From Medakamo hakoo (taxonomy: Eukaryota; Chlorophyta; Trebouxiophyceae; Coccomyxaceae), in the NCBI GenBank assembly GCA_026636295.1, contig CP089464.1, forward strand, positions 434,001-498,000: DNA of 64,000 nucleotides, written 5' to 3'. Both the position numbers and the translations under genes were made by a program. Numbering within the stretch: the first letter of the stretch is position 1; each line of letters opens with the position of its first letter. The notes below the pieces were generated by a model that was given only the letters and a program-made list of their open reading frames with translations, made no database searches and was not told the DNA's origin. Shown piece by piece: positions 23,743 through 35,699 of this stretch.

Positions 23743-24704
23743 ATGGCTGTCAAGAAGGCAAGTTTTGGGGGCGGGGCGGGCGGGGGCGGATGCGGGCGCG
23801 GCGCTGTCGGAAAAAAGAAGAGAGCATCTTTTTTCGACTGTTGGAGCGCGCTCGCGGAAAGGACAGCGAAACAGCCAACCTCGGACGGGTGGAACGTCCT
23901 TCCGCTCCCGTTTCTCCGAGCTCGGTCGATTGCATGGATTACGGTTCAGCGGACTGGCGCGGGAGAGAGCCCATCGGCGCGGTATTTGCGCCGCCGGCGG
24001 CGGCGAGACTTCAAGCGCGCGCGCGGGCCCGGCCGTGGTGCGCGCGCGCGCACCACAACGGATTCGCAGCTGTCGTTGCGGGGCGGAGGGCGGCGGCCGT
24101 CCGCCCACCAGCTGTTGCCCGCTCACCGCCCTCGTGGATCCTTGACATGTTCTGGGCGTGCCGGAATGGAGATCCAGGGCGCTGGTGGCCGCGGTCGCGG
24201 TCGCGGAAGGCTGCCAGCCTGGCGCGAGCGACCAACCACTTTTCTTTCCTTTCCATCAGGCGGCCCCGCTCACCCTCCCACGCCCCGCCACTCCAACTTG
24301 AAACCCCTGCAGGTCGTCAAGAAGGTCGCGAAGAAGCCGGCTGCCAAGAAGCCGGTCGCGAAGAAGACCGCGGCGAAGAAGCCGGCGGCCAAGCCGAAGA
24401 AGGCTGCGCCCAAGCGCAAGCCCGCGGCCAAGAAGCCGGCGGCCAAGAAGCCGGCGGCCAAGAAGCCCGCCAAGAAGGCCGCGAAGAAGCCGGCCAAGAA
24501 GGTGCGTTTGTGTGGGTGGGTGGACGGGGCGCCGGAGGGGCGCTGGAAGGCGGCCGTGGTGCGCGAGAGCGACCCCGCGGCCAAGGCACCACCACCATCG
24601 TCTACAGCTATCTCTCACACACCCTGCCCGCGACACCCTTTTCTTTTCCCCCTTGCATCTTCTCCACGCAGGCCGCCAAGAAGACCACCTCCCGCCGCAA
24701 GTAA
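23743..24704 (+). CDS. Lys/Ala-rich histone H1-like protein without globular domain
   Basis: Exons 23743-23757, 24313-24501 and 24672-24704, 78 residues. The first exon is five codons (MAVKK) and ends at a GC donor (AAG|GCAAGT). The second intron has GTGCGT and CACGCAG. The protein is almost only repeats of AKKPA/AAKK (for example AAKKPAAKKPAAKKPAKKAA) and ends TTSRRK. This is the composition of the H1 C-terminal tail, of trypanosomatid H1 and of bacterial Hc1/AlgP-type proteins, and it lacks the winged-helix domain of canonical H1. It probably binds and compacts DNA in the nucleus. Intron 1 is long (555 bp) compared with the others here. Confidence 0.75.
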
Positions 24705-25326: not shown

Positions 25327-27420
25327 ATGCTGGCCCGCCGCGCCGCGGCCGCCTGGCTGGCGGCGGCCCGCCCAGCGTCCACTCTCCTGCGCTCCATGTC
25401 CACGACCGATGCCTCCACTTCCTTCTCCCGGTCCGACGCCTCGGACATCCTGGGCGCGTACGTCCACGCCGGCTCACCCGAATTCGCGGCCAACGAGTCC
25501 GCCATGACCGCAGCCTGGGCCGAGGTGGCAGCCTTGCACGCCAAGGCCGCGGGCGGCGGTGGACCCACTGCTGTTGCGCGCCACCGTTCCCGCGGCAAGT
25601 GGCTGGCCAGGGAGCGCATCGATGCGGTGTTGGACGCGGGCAGTCCGTTCTTGGAGCTGAGCCCGCTGGCCGGGCACGGCATGTACGGTGAGTTGTGCGG
25701 GGTGGTGCGTGCGAGGCATTGAAAAAAACGCGCGCAGCGTGCCGCGTCAGCAGCGGGGGCGAGCGCGCGGGTGCAACCTCTCCCACCCCCCACACCCTCT
25801 CCTTTCCACACACACACACAGGCGACGAGGAAGTCCCGGCGGGCGGCATCGTCACGGGTCTCGGCCGCATCCACGGCCGCCTGGTCGCCATCGCGGCCAA
25901 TGACGCCACGGTGAAAGGCGGGACGTGCGTGTTGTTTTGGGCCCGGGCGTTTTCTTTCCGGTTTTTTCCATTCCATCCATCCACCACCCTCTCTCTCAAC
26001 CCTTTTCTCCTCCGTCCGCCGGGCGGACCTACCCACCCACACGACCCACACGACCCACCCACACGCACTCGCCCAAACTCGCAGCTACTACCCCATCACC
26101 GTCCAGAAACACTTGCGCCTCCAAGAAATCGCCCAAGCCTGTGCCACGCCCTGCCTCTACTTCGTCGACTCGGGCGGCGCCAACCTGCCGCGCCAGGCCG
26201 ACGTCTTCCCCGGCCGCGACCACTTCGGCCGCATTTTCTACAACCAGGCGCGGATGAGCGCGGCGGGCATCCCGCAGATTGCTGTTGTGGCGGGGTCGTG
26301 CACGGCGGGCGGGGCGTACGTCCCGGCCATGGCCGACGAGGCGGTCATCGTCAGACGGAATGGCACGATTTTCTTGGGCGGCCCGCCGCTCGTCAAGGCC
26401 GCGACGGGCGAGACTGTGTCGGCGGAAGACCTCGGCGGTGCCTCCCTCCACACCGCGACGTCCGGCGTGGCCGACCACCTGGCTGAATCCGAGGCGCACG
26501 CGTCGTCCCTGGCCCGCAGGATCGTCGCCTCGCTCGGTCACGCGGGCGCGGGCGCGCCGGGCCGGGGACCCCCACCCCCGCCCGGCCCGGGCGACCCGCC
26601 CCTGTTCCCGCCCTCCGAACTGCGTGGCGTCGTCCCCGCCGACCGCCGGGCGAGTTACGATGTGCGGGCGATCTTGGCCAGGCTGCTCGACGGCTCCCGC
26701 TTCGCCGAGTTCAAGCCGGCGTACGGCCCCACGCTCGTGTGCGGGTGGGCGCACCTCCACGGCCGCCCGCTCGGCGTGCTGGCCAACAACGGCGGCGTCC
26801 TGTTCCCTGAAGCCGCCCTCAAGGGCGCCCACTTCATCCAACTCGCCGAACAGCGGGGCGTCCCCCTGCTGTTTATCCAAAACGTGGTGGGCTTCATGGT
26901 CGGCCGCGAGTACGAGGCGGCGGGCATTGCGAAAGCGGGCGCGAAGCTCGTCACGGCCGTCGCGTCGTGTTCCGTCCCCAAGCTCACGCTCATTGTGGGC
27001 GGCTCGCACGGCGCCGGCACGTACGGCATGTGCGGGCGGGCGTACAGCCCCGCCTTCCTGTTCACCTGGCCGTCGGCCCGCATCTCGGTGATGGGCGGCG
27101 ACCAGGCGGCCGCGACGCTCGCGCAGGTCGAGGAAGCCAAGCGGGCGCGCGACGGGGCGGGGGCCTGGGACCCGGCGTCCAAGGCCGCGTTCGAGGACAA
27201 GGTCCGGGCCGAGTACGACGCCCAGGGCCGGCCCACGTACGCGTCGGCCCGGCTGTGGGATGACGGGTGCATTGACCCCGCCGAATCCCGGGCGGTGCTG
27301 GGCCTGGCGTTGGAAGCGGCGGTGGCCGGGTGGTGGGCGAAAGGCGGCGGCGGCGGCGGCGGGCGTGGGAGCGGGGGTGGTGTGCCGCCACCGGAGCGGT
27401 TTGGCGTGTTCCGGATGTAG
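25327..27420 (+). CDS. 3-methylcrotonyl-CoA carboxylase beta (carboxyltransferase) subunit
   Basis: Exons 25327-25687, 25822-25924 and 26085-27420, 599 residues. Donors are GTGAGT and GTGCGT; acceptors CACACAG and CTCGCAG. Residues 1-28 ([20 protein letters not shown]) form a mitochondrial presequence. Carboxyltransferase signatures: [87 protein letters not shown], and in the second half [20 protein letters not shown] and [15 protein letters not shown]. The YYPITVKKHLR-type sequence marks MCC rather than propionyl- or acetyl-CoA carboxylase. With the alpha subunit it carboxylates 3-methylcrotonyl-CoA in leucine breakdown. It is convergent with the alpha subunit gene, with 104 bp between the stops. 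Confidence 0.95.
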
Positions 27421-27524
27421 ATCAGAGAGCAGGCCAGAGGCAGAATGGGCGCGGGGGCGCGAAGAGCGTTTTTTTCAGCTGTCCCTCAAGAGCGTTGCTG
27501 TGTGCTCCAGTCCCCCACGCCCCC

Positions 27525-30108
27525 TCACGCCTGCCCGCCACCACTGGCGCCTTCCACCCACACCAGCTCCTCCCCGCTGCTCACCAGCGACCCGACCGCG
27601 ACGCCCACGGCCGACACGACCCCATCCATCGGCGCGACCACGGCGTGCTCCATCTTCATGGCCTCCAGGACGGCCAGGGGTTGGCCGCGGCGCACGGCCT
27701 CCCCCGGTCCGACGAGGAGTTTGACGACCCGGCCCGGCATGGGCGCGGCGGCCGCGGCCGCGCCGGAGGTCGCGCCACCCTCCGCGCCCCCATGCACCCT
27801 CGCCCACCGCCGGGCCAGGCCGACCCGGAACTCCGTGCCGCCGCCGGCCTCGCCCGGGTCCGCGCCCCACACGTGCAGGACGAGGTCATCGCCGTCCGCG
27901 GCCGCCGCGACGTCGGCCGCGAGGCGCCGCCCGCCGACGCGGGCCGTCAGGGTCCACAGGCCGTCGGCGGCGGACGGCGAGGAGAGGGACGGGCAGGTGA
28001 GCGTAACGTCGACGGGCGTTGGCGGCGGCGGCGCGGGGCCTGACGCGCCCGACCCGTCCTCCTCAGTCGGCGCGACCTCGCCGGTGACGCGCACGCTGCC
28101 TCCTCCTTCGAACGTGAGGTTCAGGTCCGCCACGCGCCCAGCGGCGGGCAGCGTCAGGCGCACGGCCCGGCCGGCGGGCAGGCCGGACACGGGACGAGCG
28201 GACGCGGCCGAGCTCCAGGCACCCCAGGGAGACGCCGGCGCGGTGGCACCCTGCTCGCCCAGGAGGTGGCGGGCGAGCGCGGCGACCGCGAGCGTCGCGG
28301 CCGGCGGCGGCGGCGGCCGCACCACGTCCGCACCGTGCTCCGTCAGGAAGCCCGTCCCGATGGCTGGGTGGCCGCCCTCACCCGACTTGGCAAAGGCCGG
28401 GTGGCCGACGATGCGCCAGCAGAGGCCGACGTTCGTGGGCAAGCCGCCGACGCGCAGGTCGGCCAAGGCGGACCGGAGGGCTGCCAGCGCGGACGTCCTG
28501 TCAGGCCCGCGCGCCAGCAGCTTGCCGATCATGGGGTCGTAAAACGTGCCGACGGCCGCGCCCGGGCCGGTGACAGCCGCGTCAAGGCGCAAGGACGTGG
28601 AGGAGGGCGGAGGCGGGGCGGCGCCGCCGGCCGGGCCGCGCCCTTCCCAGCCCCAGCCGAACGTCGTCACGCCCGCGGGCGGGCGCCACCCCGCCACGAC
28701 GCCCGCCGCCGGCAGGAACCCCGCTTCCGGCCTCTCGGCGTACAGCCGGGCTTCGATGGCGGCGCCAGCCAGGCCGACGTCGGCCTGGCCGAACCCCAGG
28801 CGCTCGCCCGCCGCGGCGCGCAGCTGTTCCTCCACCAGGTCCAGCGGGACCGGCGGGCCGGCGCCCCCCCGCCGCACGACCGTCACGCCCTCCGTCACCG
28901 GGTGCTCGACCTGCAGCCGGGCGTTGACCTCCAAGAAGAAGGCTTCGCCCGTGCGGCCGTCCACCAAAAACTCGACGGTCCCAGCGCCGCAGTAGCCGAC
29001 GGCGCGGGCGGCCGCGACGGCGGCCGCGCCCAGCGCCGCCCGCGTGGCCTCGCCCAGCCCGGGGGCGGGCGCTTCCTCCAACACCTTTTGGTGGCGGCGC
29101 TGCACCGAACAGTCCCGCTCGTTCAGGTGGACGGCGCCGCCGTGCGCGTCCGCCAGGACCTGGACCTCGATGTGGCGGGGGTCCAGGACGAGGCGTTCGA
29201 TCAGCAGGCGGTCGTCCGAGAACGCGGCCGCCGCCTCGCGCCGGGCGGACGCCAGGGCGGCCGGCAAGTCGGACGGCGTCGCCGCGACCTTCATGCCCTT
29301 GCCGCCCCCGCCCGCGACGGCTTTGACGAGGACGGGGTAGCCCACTTCCGCCGCGGCGGACGTGAGGGCGGCGTCCGACTGGTCGGCGCCGTGGTAGCCC
29401 GGGACGACGGGCACGCCGGCGTCGATCATCGTCGCCTTGGCCGCCGCCTTGTCTCCCAGCGCGGCGATGGCCGAGGAGGGCGGGCCCACCCAGGCCAGGC
29501 GCGCGCCCTCGACGGCGGCCGCGAAGGCCGCGTTCTCGGAGAGGAAGCCGTAGCCCGGGTGGAGCGCGCGCGCGCCCGAGGCCGCGGCCGCCTCCAACAG
29601 GGCGTCCGTGCGGAGGTAGGATTGCGCGGCGGGTGCGGGACCGAGGCGCCAGGCGGCGTCGGCTAAGCGGACGTGTGGGGCGGCCGCGTCCGCGTCGGAG
29701 AACACGGCGACGGTCGGGATGCCTGGGACGCGTGGGTGGGGTGGGATGGGAGGCCCGGGGCGCGTGAGGCGTGGAGAGGGGTTTCCGGAACGGGGCGCCC
29801 CGCACTCCCACACCCGCCCCCTCACCCAACCCACACCACCCAGTCTCACCCAGGCGCTGAGCTGTGCGGATGATGCGGCACGCGATTTCGCCCCTGTTCG
29901 CGATGAGCAGGGGTGATACGCGGCGCAGCGGCTGCGACGCGTCAGCGCTCCGACGAGGTTTCGGCGCGGCAGCAGACGCAAAGGACCGCAGGCCGACGAG
30001 GCCTGGACACCGGGGTGGGAGTGTGCGCGCCCAGGCGACGGCGGCCACCGCCGCCACGGGGCGGCGGGACCGCCGGGCGGCGAGGGCGGCGAGGCCGGGC
30101 GGAGCCAT
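27525..30108 (-). CDS. 3-methylcrotonyl-CoA carboxylase alpha (biotin) subunit
   Basis: Exon 1 complement 29850-30108, exon 2 complement 27525-29722, 818 residues; donor GTGAGA, phase 1. A mitochondrial presequence of about 50 residues precedes LLIANRGEIACRIIRTAQRLG. The biotin carboxylase ATP-grasp has VKAVAGGGGKGMK, RDCSVQRRHQKVLEEAP and FLEVNARLQVEHPVTE. A long linker leads to a C-terminal biotinyl domain with AMKMEH (biotinylated Lys at about 776). The start ATG lies a few bases after a run of seven A. It is tail-to-tail with the beta subunit gene, and its start lies 82 bp from the stop of the upstream hydratase gene on the same strand. Glycine/proline-rich insertions break the region between the carboxylase and biotinyl domains. 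Confidence 0.95.
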
Positions 30109-30190
30109 TCGTTTTTTTGGGGGTCTGTGCGCGCGCGCTCGACCGGGCTCGGCTCGAGCTCGCTCCAGGCCACAACCTCTCCTCACACGC

Positions 30191-31304
30191 TCACGCCCCG
30201 CTCCACACCGGTTTCCGCTTCTCCGCAAACGCGCGCAACCCTTCCAGGCGGTCCTGCGTCGGCAGGAGGGTGGCGTAACAAGCGGCCTCTAGCCGCAGCG
30301 CCGCCGCCGGGTCCAGGCTGGACCCGCCGACGATCGCGGCTTTGGCCGCGCGGAGGGAGAGCGGCGCGGCGCCGGCGATGGTCCGCGCCAGCTGCAGCGC
30401 CCGTGCGTCGGCTGCGCCGTGCGGCCCGGCGTGCCCGCCCGTCCCGGCCGCCGCGTCGGCCGCCGTCGCCACGTATTCCACGAGACCGTAGCCGGCGGCT
30501 TCGTCCGGCCCAATGCGGCGCGCGGTGGCGACGAGGTCCAGCGCGCGGGACGGCCCGACCAGGCGCGGCAGGCGCGCGCACCCGCCCGCCCCCGGGATGA
30601 TTCCCAGCCGCGCTTCGGGGAAGGCGAAGAGCGCGCCCGCGCCGGCGACGCGGAGGTCGCAGGCCAGCGCGAGTTCTGCGCCACCACCCAGCGCCACGCC
30701 ATCCACGGCCGCAATGGTGGGCATGGGCAGGGAGGCGAGGGCCGTGAGCGTCGCGCCCAGGTCGGCCACAAACGCCGCCGCGTCGCGCTGCGTCATGCCC
30801 GCCCGTTCCCGCAGGTCGGCGCCCGCGCAAAAGGCGTCTGGCACAGCGGAACGCACGACTACGGCCCGGGTCGTGACTTCGGCGCGCAGGGCTTCGATGG
30901 CTTCCTTGAGTTCGCGCAAGAGCTGCCGGCCTGTTGTAGCGCGTGTGGTCGAGAGGTTTTTTTTTTTTTTGAGTGTGGGTTTGCGTTTCCACCCGCCGTT
31001 CCCGCCCACGCGCCCACCCTCCATGGAACTCACCAATCGCGTTCTTGGCTTCCGGCCGGGTCAGGGACAGGCAGAAGATGCCGTCGTTGTCGCCGGCCAG
31101 CGGTTCGAGCTGGACGTGAAGGTGGTTGCTGGAGGTGGTGGTCGTGGTTGAGGCGCCGCACGTGGACGACGACGACACCGTGCGCGTGCTTTCCAGCCCG
31201 CCCGCCAGCCGGCCGCCCGCCCAGGACGACCCCAAGACACAGGCGGTCGTCCAGGCCGCGGGTGAGGCGCGGGAGCGCGCGAGGAGGGCTGCTGCCGCGA
31301 GCAT
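30191..31304 (-). CDS. Methylglutaconyl-CoA hydratase (AUH-type enoyl-CoA hydratase)
   Basis: Exon 1 complement 31034-31304, exon 2 complement 30191-30930, 336 residues; donor GTGAGT, acceptor ACAACAG, phase 1. The N-terminus is a likely mitochondrial presequence (MLAAAALLARSRASPAAW). The crotonase fold has the oxyanion-hole segments FCAGADLRERAGM and ALGGGAELALACDLR, both catalytic Glu positions (GGGAEL and FPEARLG), and IIPGAGGCARLPRLVG. The end PTQDRLEGLRAFAEKRKP closely follows human AUH (PTKDRLEGLLAFKEKRPP from memory), which favours AUH over ECHS1. The reaction is hydration of 3-methylglutaconyl-CoA to HMG-CoA, the step directly after MCC. The gene lies just upstream of the MCC alpha gene in the same direction. 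Confidence 0.88.
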
Positions 31305-31404: not shown

Positions 31405-31480
<76 letters not shown>

Positions 31481-31708: not shown

Positions 31709-33280
31709 TCACACACGCACAAAGTCAATGGTGCACGTCGACTTGAGCAGCCCAAACCCAAAGTCCACGCCAAACAGTTGGGCCAGCTGCAGACCGTACC
31801 GGAACCCAAACTCGCCCAGCTGCGTGGGTTGGACTGTTGGTGGATGGAAGAAAGGCGGGGGGGGGGGGGGGGGGGGGGGACGGGTGAGTGAATGAGAGGC
31901 ACGCCACCACGCGCGCGTCCCACTCCAAGCACTCCTCTCCCCCTCCGCTTTTAAGTCAACAAACTCACTCGACGGCAGCCAGATGACAAACCCGTCAGAC
32001 GTGGGCGTCACGCGCGCGCCCTCGGGCGCGGTCTTGCCGCCGAGCGGCAGGTCGACCGTCGCTTTCAACGTGCCCGCCACGTCCAAGATCTCCGGCAGGA
32101 GCCAGGCAACAGGGTTGGGAATGACGACGCCCACCTTGGGGAAGGAGCCGAAGTAACGGTCGACGCACAGGTTGAAGCCGGTACCGAAAAAGGGCGTCGC
32201 GACACGGCCACCCAGGAGCAGGTTGAGCGTCGTGCCGCCCACGTTGCCCAGGACTTGGCCGGACACGTTGTCGATGCCTTTTGCAGACACGCCGCCGGCG
32301 GCGGAGTTGCCGGCGGACGCGTCGGCAGACGCGGCTTTGCCGCCGTCGGGCGCGTTGGACGCGGTGTTGATGGGCGCGGGGCGGCCGCCGTTGTCCGAGG
32401 CGGCGGCGGCGGCGGAGCCGCCCAGGGCAGCAGACTGGGCGGTGGTCAGCTGCTGTGGGCCAGCAGGCGCGGCGGCGGGCTGCTTTTGCGGCTCCGTCGC
32501 CGTCGCCACCGGCGCGGCTTTGCCCGTGTCGGCCGCCATCGCGACCGCGGCCGCAGACGGCTTGGCCGCCGTCGCTTCGGGCGGCTGGGCGGCGTCGTTG
32601 GAGAAGACGGGCACGGACGCGCGCATGGCGGCGTCCCGGGCCTGCATGTCGGCGGCCGACGGCGCGGCGGCGGCGGCGGCGTCGGCGAGGAGGGCCGCGA
32701 GCGCGGGCGCGGGCGCGCCCGCGGCAAACGCCGGGTTGTTGGGCGGGATGTAACCCGCCGTGCCGTAGCCTGGGGACGCCACGCCCGCCGCGGCGGCCAG
32801 GGCTTGAGCATCACCGTTGGCCGGGGCGGCGGCAGGGGAGGCGGCGGCGGCCGCCTGCGGCCCGGCCCCCGCGCCTTGGACGGACAGGGCCGGCCGGGCT
32901 TCGACCACCCCGTCCTTCGTCGGCAGTTTGAACACCGGCGCGGCTTCATTCACTTGCGCCACAGACTGCCGCTCAGAGGGCGAACGTTTCGACAAGTCCA
33001 TCTCCACCGGCGCCTGGTAGTCCGAGGCGTCGGGAGACGCAGGCGCGGCGGCCGTCCCCTTCACCGCCGCTTCCGGGTCACGCGGCGTGCCCGTGCCAGT
33101 GATGGTGGCCAAGACGTCCGGGTCCAAGCGGGACAGGGCGTTGGGGTCGTAGCCGTCCGGGTTGGTGGACGGGGCGGACGTGGAGGCGGTCGAGGTCTCG
33201 GCGAGCAGGGCGCGGGAGGACGCGGTGGCCGGGCCGGCAGCGGCCGCGAGGAGGGCGGCGCAGACAAACGCGCGGCGCAT
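31709..33280 (-). CDS. Secreted Ala-rich protein with unrecognised C-terminal domain (paralog A)
   Basis: Exon 1 complement 31969-33280, exon 2 complement 31709-31833, 478 residues; donor GTGAGT, acceptor CCAACAG, phase 1. Signal peptide MRRAFVCAALLAAAAGPATASS. Residues about 25-350 are low-complexity Ala/Pro/Gly with short conserved-looking bits. The last 127 residues (about 352-478) form a compact domain shared with the divergent neighbour: GGRVATPFFGTGFNLCVDRY, FGSFPKVGVVIPNPVAWLLP, PTSDGFVIWLPS and FGVDFGFGLLKSTCTIDFVRV (split by position). Two cysteines are conserved in both copies. The intron splits this domain at PS^IQP. I do not recognise the domain. The secretory signal suggests cell-wall, vesicle or extracellular function. 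Confidence 0.8.
   Translation of the reverse strand: MRRAFVCAALLAAAAGPATASSRALLAETSTASTSAPSTNPDGYDPNALSRLDPDVLATITGTGTPRDPEAAVKGTAAAPASPDASDYQAPVEMDLSKRSPSERQSVAQVNEAAPVFKLPTKDGVVEARPALSVQGAGAGPQAAAAASPAAAPANGDAQALAAAAGVASPGYGTAGYIPPNNPAFAAGAPAPALAALLADAAAAAAPSAADMQARDAAMRASVPVFSNDAAQPPEATAAKPSAAAVAMAADTGKAAPVATATEPQKQPAAAPAGPQQLTTAQSAALGGSAAAAASDNGGRPAPINTASNAPDGGKAASADASAGNSAAGGVSAKGIDNVSGQVLGNVGGTTLNLLLGGRVATPFFGTGFNLCVDRYFGSFPKVGVVIPNPVAWLLPEILDVAGTLKATVDLPLGGKTAPEGARVTPTSDGFVIWLPSSEFVDLKAEGERSAWSGTRAWWRASHSLTRPPPPPPPPPFFHPPTVQPTQLGEFGFRYGLQLAQLFGVDFGFGLLKSTCTIDFVRV
31857..31879. repeat. Poly-G run inside the intron of paralog A
   Basis: 23 consecutive G (C-run in the transcript) just upstream of the acceptor of the minus-strand intron, where it probably serves as part of the polypyrimidine tract. 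Confidence 0.9.
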
Positions 33281-34442: not shown

Positions 34443-35699
34443 ATGCGGCCGACCGCCGCAACCTCGCCGCCGGCCGAGGCCGGCGCCTGCTCCTGCTCGC
34501 CCGCCGCCGCCATGGCCGTCGTGGCCGCTGCTGCCGCTCCTCAATCTACATGGCAAGTGCACGTTTGCAGGCGGCGCCAGGCCCTGTGGACCCGTCTGCT
34601 GTCCGCCGCGTCCACCGCCCCACTCGCCGCGCTCGCGCTGTTGCTGCTGCTCGCGAGCGCGCCGCTCGCCGTCACCGCCGCCCGCCCAGGCCGGCCCGAC
34701 GCGTCCGTCGAACCCGCGTCCGCGGCGTTGCGCAGCCTCTTAGCGGCAGCTCCGGCACCGTCTCAAATCCCGGCCGACGTCCGCGACCGGCTGGCGAAGG
34801 CCAACGCAGTCTTGGCCCTCCGCAAGGCCGGCCTCTTGCCCGGCAACGCCCGCTTGCCGGCGTCGCTCCAGGCCAAGACGGTCGACGCGGTCAATGCCGC
34901 GGCTCCCTCGTACGACATCCCGGGCGTGGGCAAAGCCCGGCCGGTCCTGACGCAGCAGGTGGGCGGCGGCGGGGATGGTGCCAGGGCGCAGGTCGCCGGC
35001 GCGCCCGCCCCCTCTGCGCCCGCCAAAAAATGGGGCCCGCCGCCCGGCTGGCTGGCGTCCGCGCCCGCGCTGGCGCCGCGCCGCGGGTTTGATGCCGGGC
35101 CGGCGGCTGCCACTGGGCCTGTCCGCCAGCCCGCGGGCGTGAACGCGACCGGCCCGCTGGCCGACCTGATGGCGGCGGCCGCCGCCGCCGCGCCCGCCTC
35201 CTCCCCCGCCCTCGCCCCGCACGACAAGGCTCTGGACGGCCGCGTCCAGTCCAACGCCCTCATCGGCGAGTTGGGTGGCCTGGGAGCCGACCAGTCGACG
35301 GGCTCCGTCATCCAAATGCTGGGCGGCTTCCGTGTCGCGACGCCCTGGTTTGGCACGGGCTTCAACTTTTGCGTGGACCGCTACTTCGGCTCCTTCCCCA
35401 AAGTCGGCATCGTCATCCCCAACGCCGCCGCCTGGCTGCTGCCGGACTTGGCGTCCATCTTTGGCGACGACCCGCTCCACGCCACCGTCAACCTGCCGTC
35501 CCCGGGCGCGGGGCTACCCAAAGACGCGCGCGCCGAACCGACGTCGGACGGCTTCGTCATTTGGATGCCGTCGACGCAGCCGCTGTACATCTCCAACTTT
35601 GGGTTCCGGTATTCGTTGCAGGTCGCCCAACTGTTTGGTGTGGACTTCGGCTTTGGCATCCTGAAAATCGGGTGCCGCGTCGACTTTGTGCGTGTTTAG
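34443..35699 (+). CDS. Secreted or anchored protein with unrecognised C-terminal domain (paralog B)
   Basis: 418 residues in one exon if the ATG at 34443 is used; an in-frame ATG at 34512 would also leave the hydrophobic segment (LAALALLLLLASAPLAVTAA, about 57-80), a signal peptide or anchor. The middle has a helical region (IPADVRDRLAKANAVLAL) and a Pro/Ala linker. Residues about 290-418 match the C-terminal domain of paralog A: GGFRVATPWFGTGFNFCVDR, FGSFPKVGIVIPNAAAWLLP, PTSDGFVIWMPSTQP and FGVDFGFGILKIGCRVDFVRV (parts). The conserved cysteines are at about 310 and 411. Unlike paralog A there is no intron in the domain. Function unknown. Confidence 0.78.
   Translation: MRPTAATSPPAEAGACSCSPAAAMAVVAAAAAPQSTWQVHVCRRRQALWTRLLSAASTAPLAALALLLLLASAPLAVTAARPGRPDASVEPASAALRSLLAAAPAPSQIPADVRDRLAKANAVLALRKAGLLPGNARLPASLQAKTVDAVNAAAPSYDIPGVGKARPVLTQQVGGGGDGARAQVAGAPAPSAPAKKWGPPPGWLASAPALAPRRGFDAGPAAATGPVRQPAGVNATGPLADLMAAAAAAAPASSPALAPHDKALDGRVQSNALIGELGGLGADQSTGSVIQMLGGFRVATPWFGTGFNFCVDRYFGSFPKVGIVIPNAAAWLLPDLASIFGDDPLHATVNLPSPGAGLPKDARAEPTSDGFVIWMPSTQPLYISNFGFRYSLQVAQLFGVDFGFGILKIGCRVDFVRV

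Follow-up and report, generated by a model that had tools for sequence, protein, structure and literature searches.

In bacteria, genes for leucine breakdown can stand side by side in an operon, which we take to be liu (leucine/isovalerate). A eukaryotic counterpart has been described in Aspergillus nidulans, where ivdA (AN4688), mccB (AN4687) and mccA (AN4690) constitute a leucine-degradation cluster (PMC4117967). For green algae, conserved gene neighbourhoods have been reported that include nitrate, urea and photorespiration clusters, in a study that also names five previously reported functional clusters (PMC7826186); its main text makes no mention of leucine, methylcrotonyl, branched, isovaleryl or valine, and among the titles and opening parts of abstracts listed from the open literature, no cluster containing 3-methylcrotonyl-CoA carboxylase (MCC) in a green alga was found, which is not proof of absence. 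Passages of an Auxenochlorella preprint (PMC12633428) contain nothing on leucine.

The individual enzymes have received attention in algae. The MCC beta subunit (MCCB) and isovaleryl-CoA dehydrogenase (IVD) of Dunaliella have been described together with their C. reinhardtii homologs and tied to acetyl-CoA supply, in a paper that also cites a knock-down of MCC in a diatom (PMC5362678). Green algae are further known to produce bicistronic nuclear mRNAs, in which the first open reading frame (ORF1) has a weak start context and few AUGs precede the second (PMC11892635). Here we describe a locus of the green alga Medakamo hakoo, the nuclear genome of which has been reported as 16 contigs with 72.7% GC and 7,629 genes (PMC9871001). 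The assembly analysed comprises 15,638,232 bases in 16 contigs, and the window, meaning the whole stretch of DNA under study, is 64 kb of one of these (C11).

Gene structures at the locus

The first-pass annotation of the window proposed that three genes lie side by side, 104 and 82 bp apart, and these coordinates were reproduced when the gene models were rebuilt by hand. Positions 25327-31304 hold an MCCB gene (+ strand), a gene for the alpha (biotin) subunit of MCC (MCCA, - strand) and a gene for an AUH-type 3-methylglutaconyl-CoA hydratase (AUH, - strand), all of them adjacent, intact and intron-bearing. MCCB (25327..27420; exons 25327-25687, 25822-25924 and 26085-27420) encodes 599 aa, MCCA (27525..30108; exons 30108-29850 and 29722-27525) encodes 818 aa, and AUH (30191..31304; exons 31304-31034 and 30930-30191) encodes 336 aa. 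The MCCB and MCCA genes converge, with 104 bp from stop codon to stop codon (27421..27524), and the stop codon of AUH is separated from the start codon of MCCA, on the same strand, by 82 bp that contain no ATG (30109..30190). The four introns measure 134, 160, 127 and 103 nt and all are of the GT-AG type. A custom gene finder, for which 184 kb of the genome served as training sequence, produced 84 predicted models and returned identical exons for the trio, although the trio was among its training seeds and the agreement is therefore not independent. A perfect (CA)36.5 microsatellite (31406-31478) lies upstream of AUH, about 100 bp from its start codon.

All three proteins had been credited with mitochondrial-type N-termini. 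Within the first 35 residues, MCCB carries five basic and one acidic residue, MCCA six and none, and AUH three and none, so that these N-termini are basic and nearly free of acidic residues. However, as evidence for import this charge is weak because the proteome is rich in arginine and alanine and many models are equally charged: the net N-terminal charge was equalled or exceeded by 20 (MCCB), 5 (MCCA) and 27 (AUH) of 66 gene models.

Predicted identities of the encoded enzymes

The MCCB protein matched the Pfam family Carboxyl_trans (480 bits) and scored 670 bits against MCC beta (PDB 3u9r) and 658 bits against mitochondrial MCC beta (8j4z). Scores were nearly as high against two chains whose names are AccD1 (4q0g, 659 bits) and propionyl-CoA carboxylase (9tps, 637 bits), compared with 452 bits for geranyl-CoA carboxylase and at most 270 bits for canonical chains of the propionyl-CoA carboxylase (PCC) type. 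On these PDB scores, the possibilities that MCCB is a propionyl- or a geranyl-CoA carboxylase were rejected. In MCCA, the Pfam matches Biotin_carb_N, CPSase_L_D2, Biotin_carb_C and Biotin_lipoyl make up the full set of biotin carboxylase and biotinyl domains, and the protein carries EAMKMEH, in which EAMKM is presumably the biotinyl lysine motif expected of an MCC alpha subunit. Its top PDB match was MCC alpha (3u9s, 503 bits), by a narrow margin over PCC alpha (3n6r, 479 bits); because these two scores are close, the assignment of MCCA leans on the neighbouring gene. The combined matches support the prediction that MCCA and MCCB are both subunits of 3-methylcrotonyl-CoA carboxylase and would carboxylate 3-methylcrotonyl-CoA.

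When the genome was searched exon by exon and the best candidates were scored, no second MCC/PCC-like pair was found. Of the four Carboxyl_trans matches in the genome, two were MCCB exons, one was a 47-bit match on C2 and one fell in an open frame of 2,513 aa on C7, an ACC-like frame that also has a Biotin_carb_C match. Biotin_carb_C matches in the genome likewise numbered four. At curated NCBIfam cut-offs no family was matched by MCCB (seven of seven families), MCCA (best 25 of 45) or AUH (best 25 of 73), and no relatives of MCCB were confirmed in viral contigs. One irregularity was noted in MCCB, where positions 26785-26799 encode NNGGV and the five best PDB relatives have NNGV or NNGI; the one extra glycine (GGC GGC) sits in a strongly conserved motif and could be due to replication slippage or to a sequencing slip.

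The third protein matched Pfam ECH_1 (188 bits) and scored 221 bits against AUH (PDB 1hzd), which we take to be the human AUH protein, versus 127 bits against a mitochondrial enoyl-CoA hydratase (9rgq). A tree was built that took in five of the seven own-genome ECH_1 matches other than AUH (eight in all) together with 11 of 27 liu hydratases. Here the algal protein joined 1hzd, 3kqf and 5jbx with moderate support (84/89), outside the own-genome paralogs that were included; two members of this clade are bacterial relatives bearing other names. A grouping with generic enoyl-CoA hydratases, named in the first-pass annotation as the result that would speak against its proposal, was not observed, and the identity of the third gene as a generic enoyl-CoA hydratase was rejected on the PDB scores and the tree. 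These data support the third gene being an AUH-type methylglutaconyl-CoA hydratase, with a predicted action on 3-methylglutaconyl-CoA. Both the enzyme identities and the nuclear location that had been proposed for the trio are supported.

The remainder of the pathway and the genomic setting

Genes for two further steps were located in the genome: IVD on contig C8 (351 bits to PDB 1ivh) and HMG-CoA lyase (HMGL) on contig C7 (349 bits, above its NCBIfam cut-off of 246). Both are on other contigs than the trio, and the leucine cluster is therefore only partial. The pathway from isovaleryl-CoA through cleavage of HMG-CoA, as judged from these predicted enzymes, looks complete and clustered only in its middle. 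Among the neighbours of IVD and HMGL (two 10-kb loci, searched with Pfam), five of the six stretches scanned gave matches, none of them suggestive of leucine breakdown. Beside the HMG-CoA lyase gene on C7 lies a single open frame (L114, 7085-10000, - strand; truncated where the analysed stretch stops) with matches to S-adenosylmethionine decarboxylase and to ornithine/arginine decarboxylase-type proteins, an apparent bifunctional polyamine enzyme.

The gene finder predicted 31 gene models in the window. When the main exons of 23 of the 28 models outside the trio were scanned with Pfam, 14 gave matches (SHMT, ZIP, Nramp, DTW and others), none of which was for leucine breakdown. On one side of the trio there is a divergent pair of predicted paralogs (31709-33280, - strand, and 34443-35699, + strand) without a Pfam match in the stretches scanned; they are 65% identical over a C-terminal stretch of 132 columns, and one of them starts, by eye, with a secretion-like N-terminus. 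On the other side, upstream of MCCB, a Lys/Ala/Pro-rich frame (23934-24704, + strand) resembles by eye a linker-histone tail, and its main exon had no Pfam match.

The GC content of the window was 69-77% in 4-kb steps. The introns and the even composition speak against the locus being a bacterial contaminant. In the genome as a whole, 23 matches to the chlorophyll a/b-binding family were counted exon by exon, which identifies the host as a green alga possessing light-harvesting genes. Two light-harvesting genes on C1 are divergent (C1:1147113-1147622, - strand, and C1:1149345-1149854, + strand) and are identical over the first ~47 residues compared; other light-harvesting matches occur no more than 5 kb apart at C1:651-653 kb, C4:204-206 kb and C9:834-839 kb.

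Chance, shared transcription and bacterial origin as explanations for the adjacency

Three genes of one pathway might come to be adjacent by chance or through neutral rearrangement in a compact genome, in which case their order would be functionally meaningless. The genome is small, with about one gene per 2 kb, and IVD and HMGL are unlinked to the trio. Moreover, both intergenic distances are inside the local range. Among predicted models of at least 100 codons, the 104-bp gap was the 7th shortest of 27 convergent gaps (median 218 bp) and is ordinary, and the 82-bp head-to-tail gap was the second shortest of 17 co-directional gaps (median 386 bp) and is short but not alone. Shared upstream words were also sought, using 300 bp for each of MCCB, AUH, IVD and HMGL, with the starts of IVD and HMGL taken from the gene finder. 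Six 8-mers were shared by at least three of the four genes, versus a control mean of 4.4, and 148 of 500 random quartets matched or exceeded this number; at 8-mer resolution, nothing points to an upstream element common to the four. Against this stands the probability that the three named genes are contiguous by chance, 6/7629^2 = 1.0e-7 when uncorrected for the many possible trios. Allowing for a few thousand possible same-pathway trios, a number that is our own estimate, the chance of such an adjacency is estimated to be below about 1e-3, well under 1%. A chance origin is accordingly quite unlikely, and the data support a non-random adjacency, one that fits a eukaryotic metabolic gene cluster in the sense of unrelated genes of the same pathway lying next to each other beyond chance.

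The short gap between AUH and MCCA could have a different meaning if both frames were carried by a single bicistronic nuclear mRNA on which ribosomes reach MCCA by leaky scanning over the AUH start, with MCCB separate and convergent. The pair is like the bicistronic loci of green algae (PMC11892635) in its short same-strand spacing and in the absence of an ATG between the frames: the 82 nt compare with published inter-ORF medians of 183 nt for C. reinhardtii and 40 nt for A. protothecoides. A tentative further likeness is the number of ATGs in ORF1, as AUH has three internal ones versus 5.9 expected (a ratio of 0.51; 8 of 67 coding sequences were lower), whose contexts rank among or below the weakest 8 of 66 starts. 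Furthermore, over a quarter of the proteins from A. protothecoides bicistronic loci have a predicted mitochondrial link (PMC11892635). However, leaky scanning predicts a weak ORF1 start, and AUH departs from the described loci in having a strong one, which tops 63 of 66 predicted starts as well as that of MCCA (8.47 versus 5.82 bits). The MCCA context itself ranks above 59 of 66, and the two values fit separately translated genes; the score covers 8 bases upstream of starts taken from predicted models, and the finder's own start-context score may inflate this background. ORF1 is also long in comparison (1,011 nt, ~3-fold the published medians of 357 and 291 nt; PMC11892635), and closely spaced genes are frequent in this genome. 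A TGTAA poly(A) signal was present within 300 nt downstream of only 7 of 67 stops and was uninformative as to whether the 3' ends are separate. Separate AUH and MCCA genes are likelier than a bicistron because the AUH start context is strong and not weak, making translation of MCCA by leaky scanning rather unlikely. A bicistronic mRNA overlapping the 3' end of MCCB, with translation by reinitiation or weak leakage and not under the weak-start rule, is likewise rather improbable.

The trio could finally be a bacterial liu operon that was taken up by the alga and acquired introns later. The likeness lies in genes of the same pathway standing side by side: in the 80 top-ranking bacterial MCCB loci, drawn from at least 583 confirmed relatives, an AUH-like gene lay between MCCB and MCCA in at least 27, and the order IVD-MCCB-AUH-MCCA-HMGL was present in at least 23, both counts being lower bounds because score thresholds were applied and contig ends truncate some of the loci. 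At the cut-offs used, MCCB stood alone in 18 of the 80. In contrast to the trio, the liu operon occupies a single strand, includes IVD and HMGL in its full form and contains a hydratase of a different subfamily, whereas the algal genes depart from it in strand and order and contain introns, and IVD and HMGL are elsewhere. The algal hydratase is 43.8% identical to AUH 1hzd, as compared with 27-33% for the nine hydratases of liu operons that score best, and the 11 of 27 liu hydratases placed in the tree form a clade of their own (99/99). The MCCB tree (79 of the 80 bacterial rows with at most one stop, 19 kept after removal of near-duplicates, and one other eukaryotic sequence) gave the algal sequence a long branch for which no bacterial sister received support. 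This result neither favours an old transfer nor rules it out, and the age of the gene cannot be read from a tree with a single further eukaryotic member. Transfer of a liu operon was set aside as highly improbable, mainly since its hydratase belongs to another subfamily.

Discussion

The reading that we prefer, with a probability of roughly two in three, is that the three intact nuclear genes of M. hakoo constitute a small and partial leucine-breakdown cluster, that they are most likely separate transcription units, and that their adjacency is non-random. If expressed and imported, MCCA and MCCB would form a biotin carboxylase converting 3-methylcrotonyl-CoA to 3-methylglutaconyl-CoA in mitochondrial leucine breakdown; the AUH-type hydratase would then turn this product into HMG-CoA, which the unlinked HMG-CoA lyase would split. 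In this reading AUH and MCCA are probably separate units in head-to-tail order, and MCCB converges on them. From the chance estimate we infer that selection, for co-inheritance or for a shared chromatin environment, probably keeps the genes together. Co-expression, which the first-pass annotation had put forward as another target of selection, drew no support from the search for shared upstream words.

That leucine-breakdown genes cluster in bacteria and some fungi, as the first-pass annotation stated, is borne out by the liu loci among the 80 bacterial MCCB loci and by the A. nidulans cluster (PMC4117967). The trio resembles the latter in being a group of eukaryotic nuclear leucine-breakdown genes with both MCC subunits; the two differ in that the partner in A. 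nidulans is isovaleryl-CoA dehydrogenase and in the alga a hydratase, with IVD on another contig. The trio is also like the conserved gene neighbourhoods of green algae (PMC7826186) in that the neighbours are functionally linked. It is a real but modest eukaryotic pathway cluster, and pathway clustering of this kind is already known from fungi.

Should AUH and MCCA nevertheless be joined on one mRNA, two consecutive enzymes of leucine degradation would share a transcript. The unit would then be operon-like and coherent in its pathway, and its long ORF1 would code for an enzyme; with its 82-nt gap, the head-to-tail pair lends itself well to the question of whether enzymes of the same pathway can be joined in algal bicistrons. 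More generally, MCC matters for the recycling of amino-acid carbon into acetyl-CoA and lipid in algae (PMC5362678), and descriptions of primary-metabolism gene clusters from green algae are few (PMC7826186). Being similar to the fungal cluster and yet distinct from it, a green-algal one would provide a test case for the repeated assembly of the same pathway cluster.
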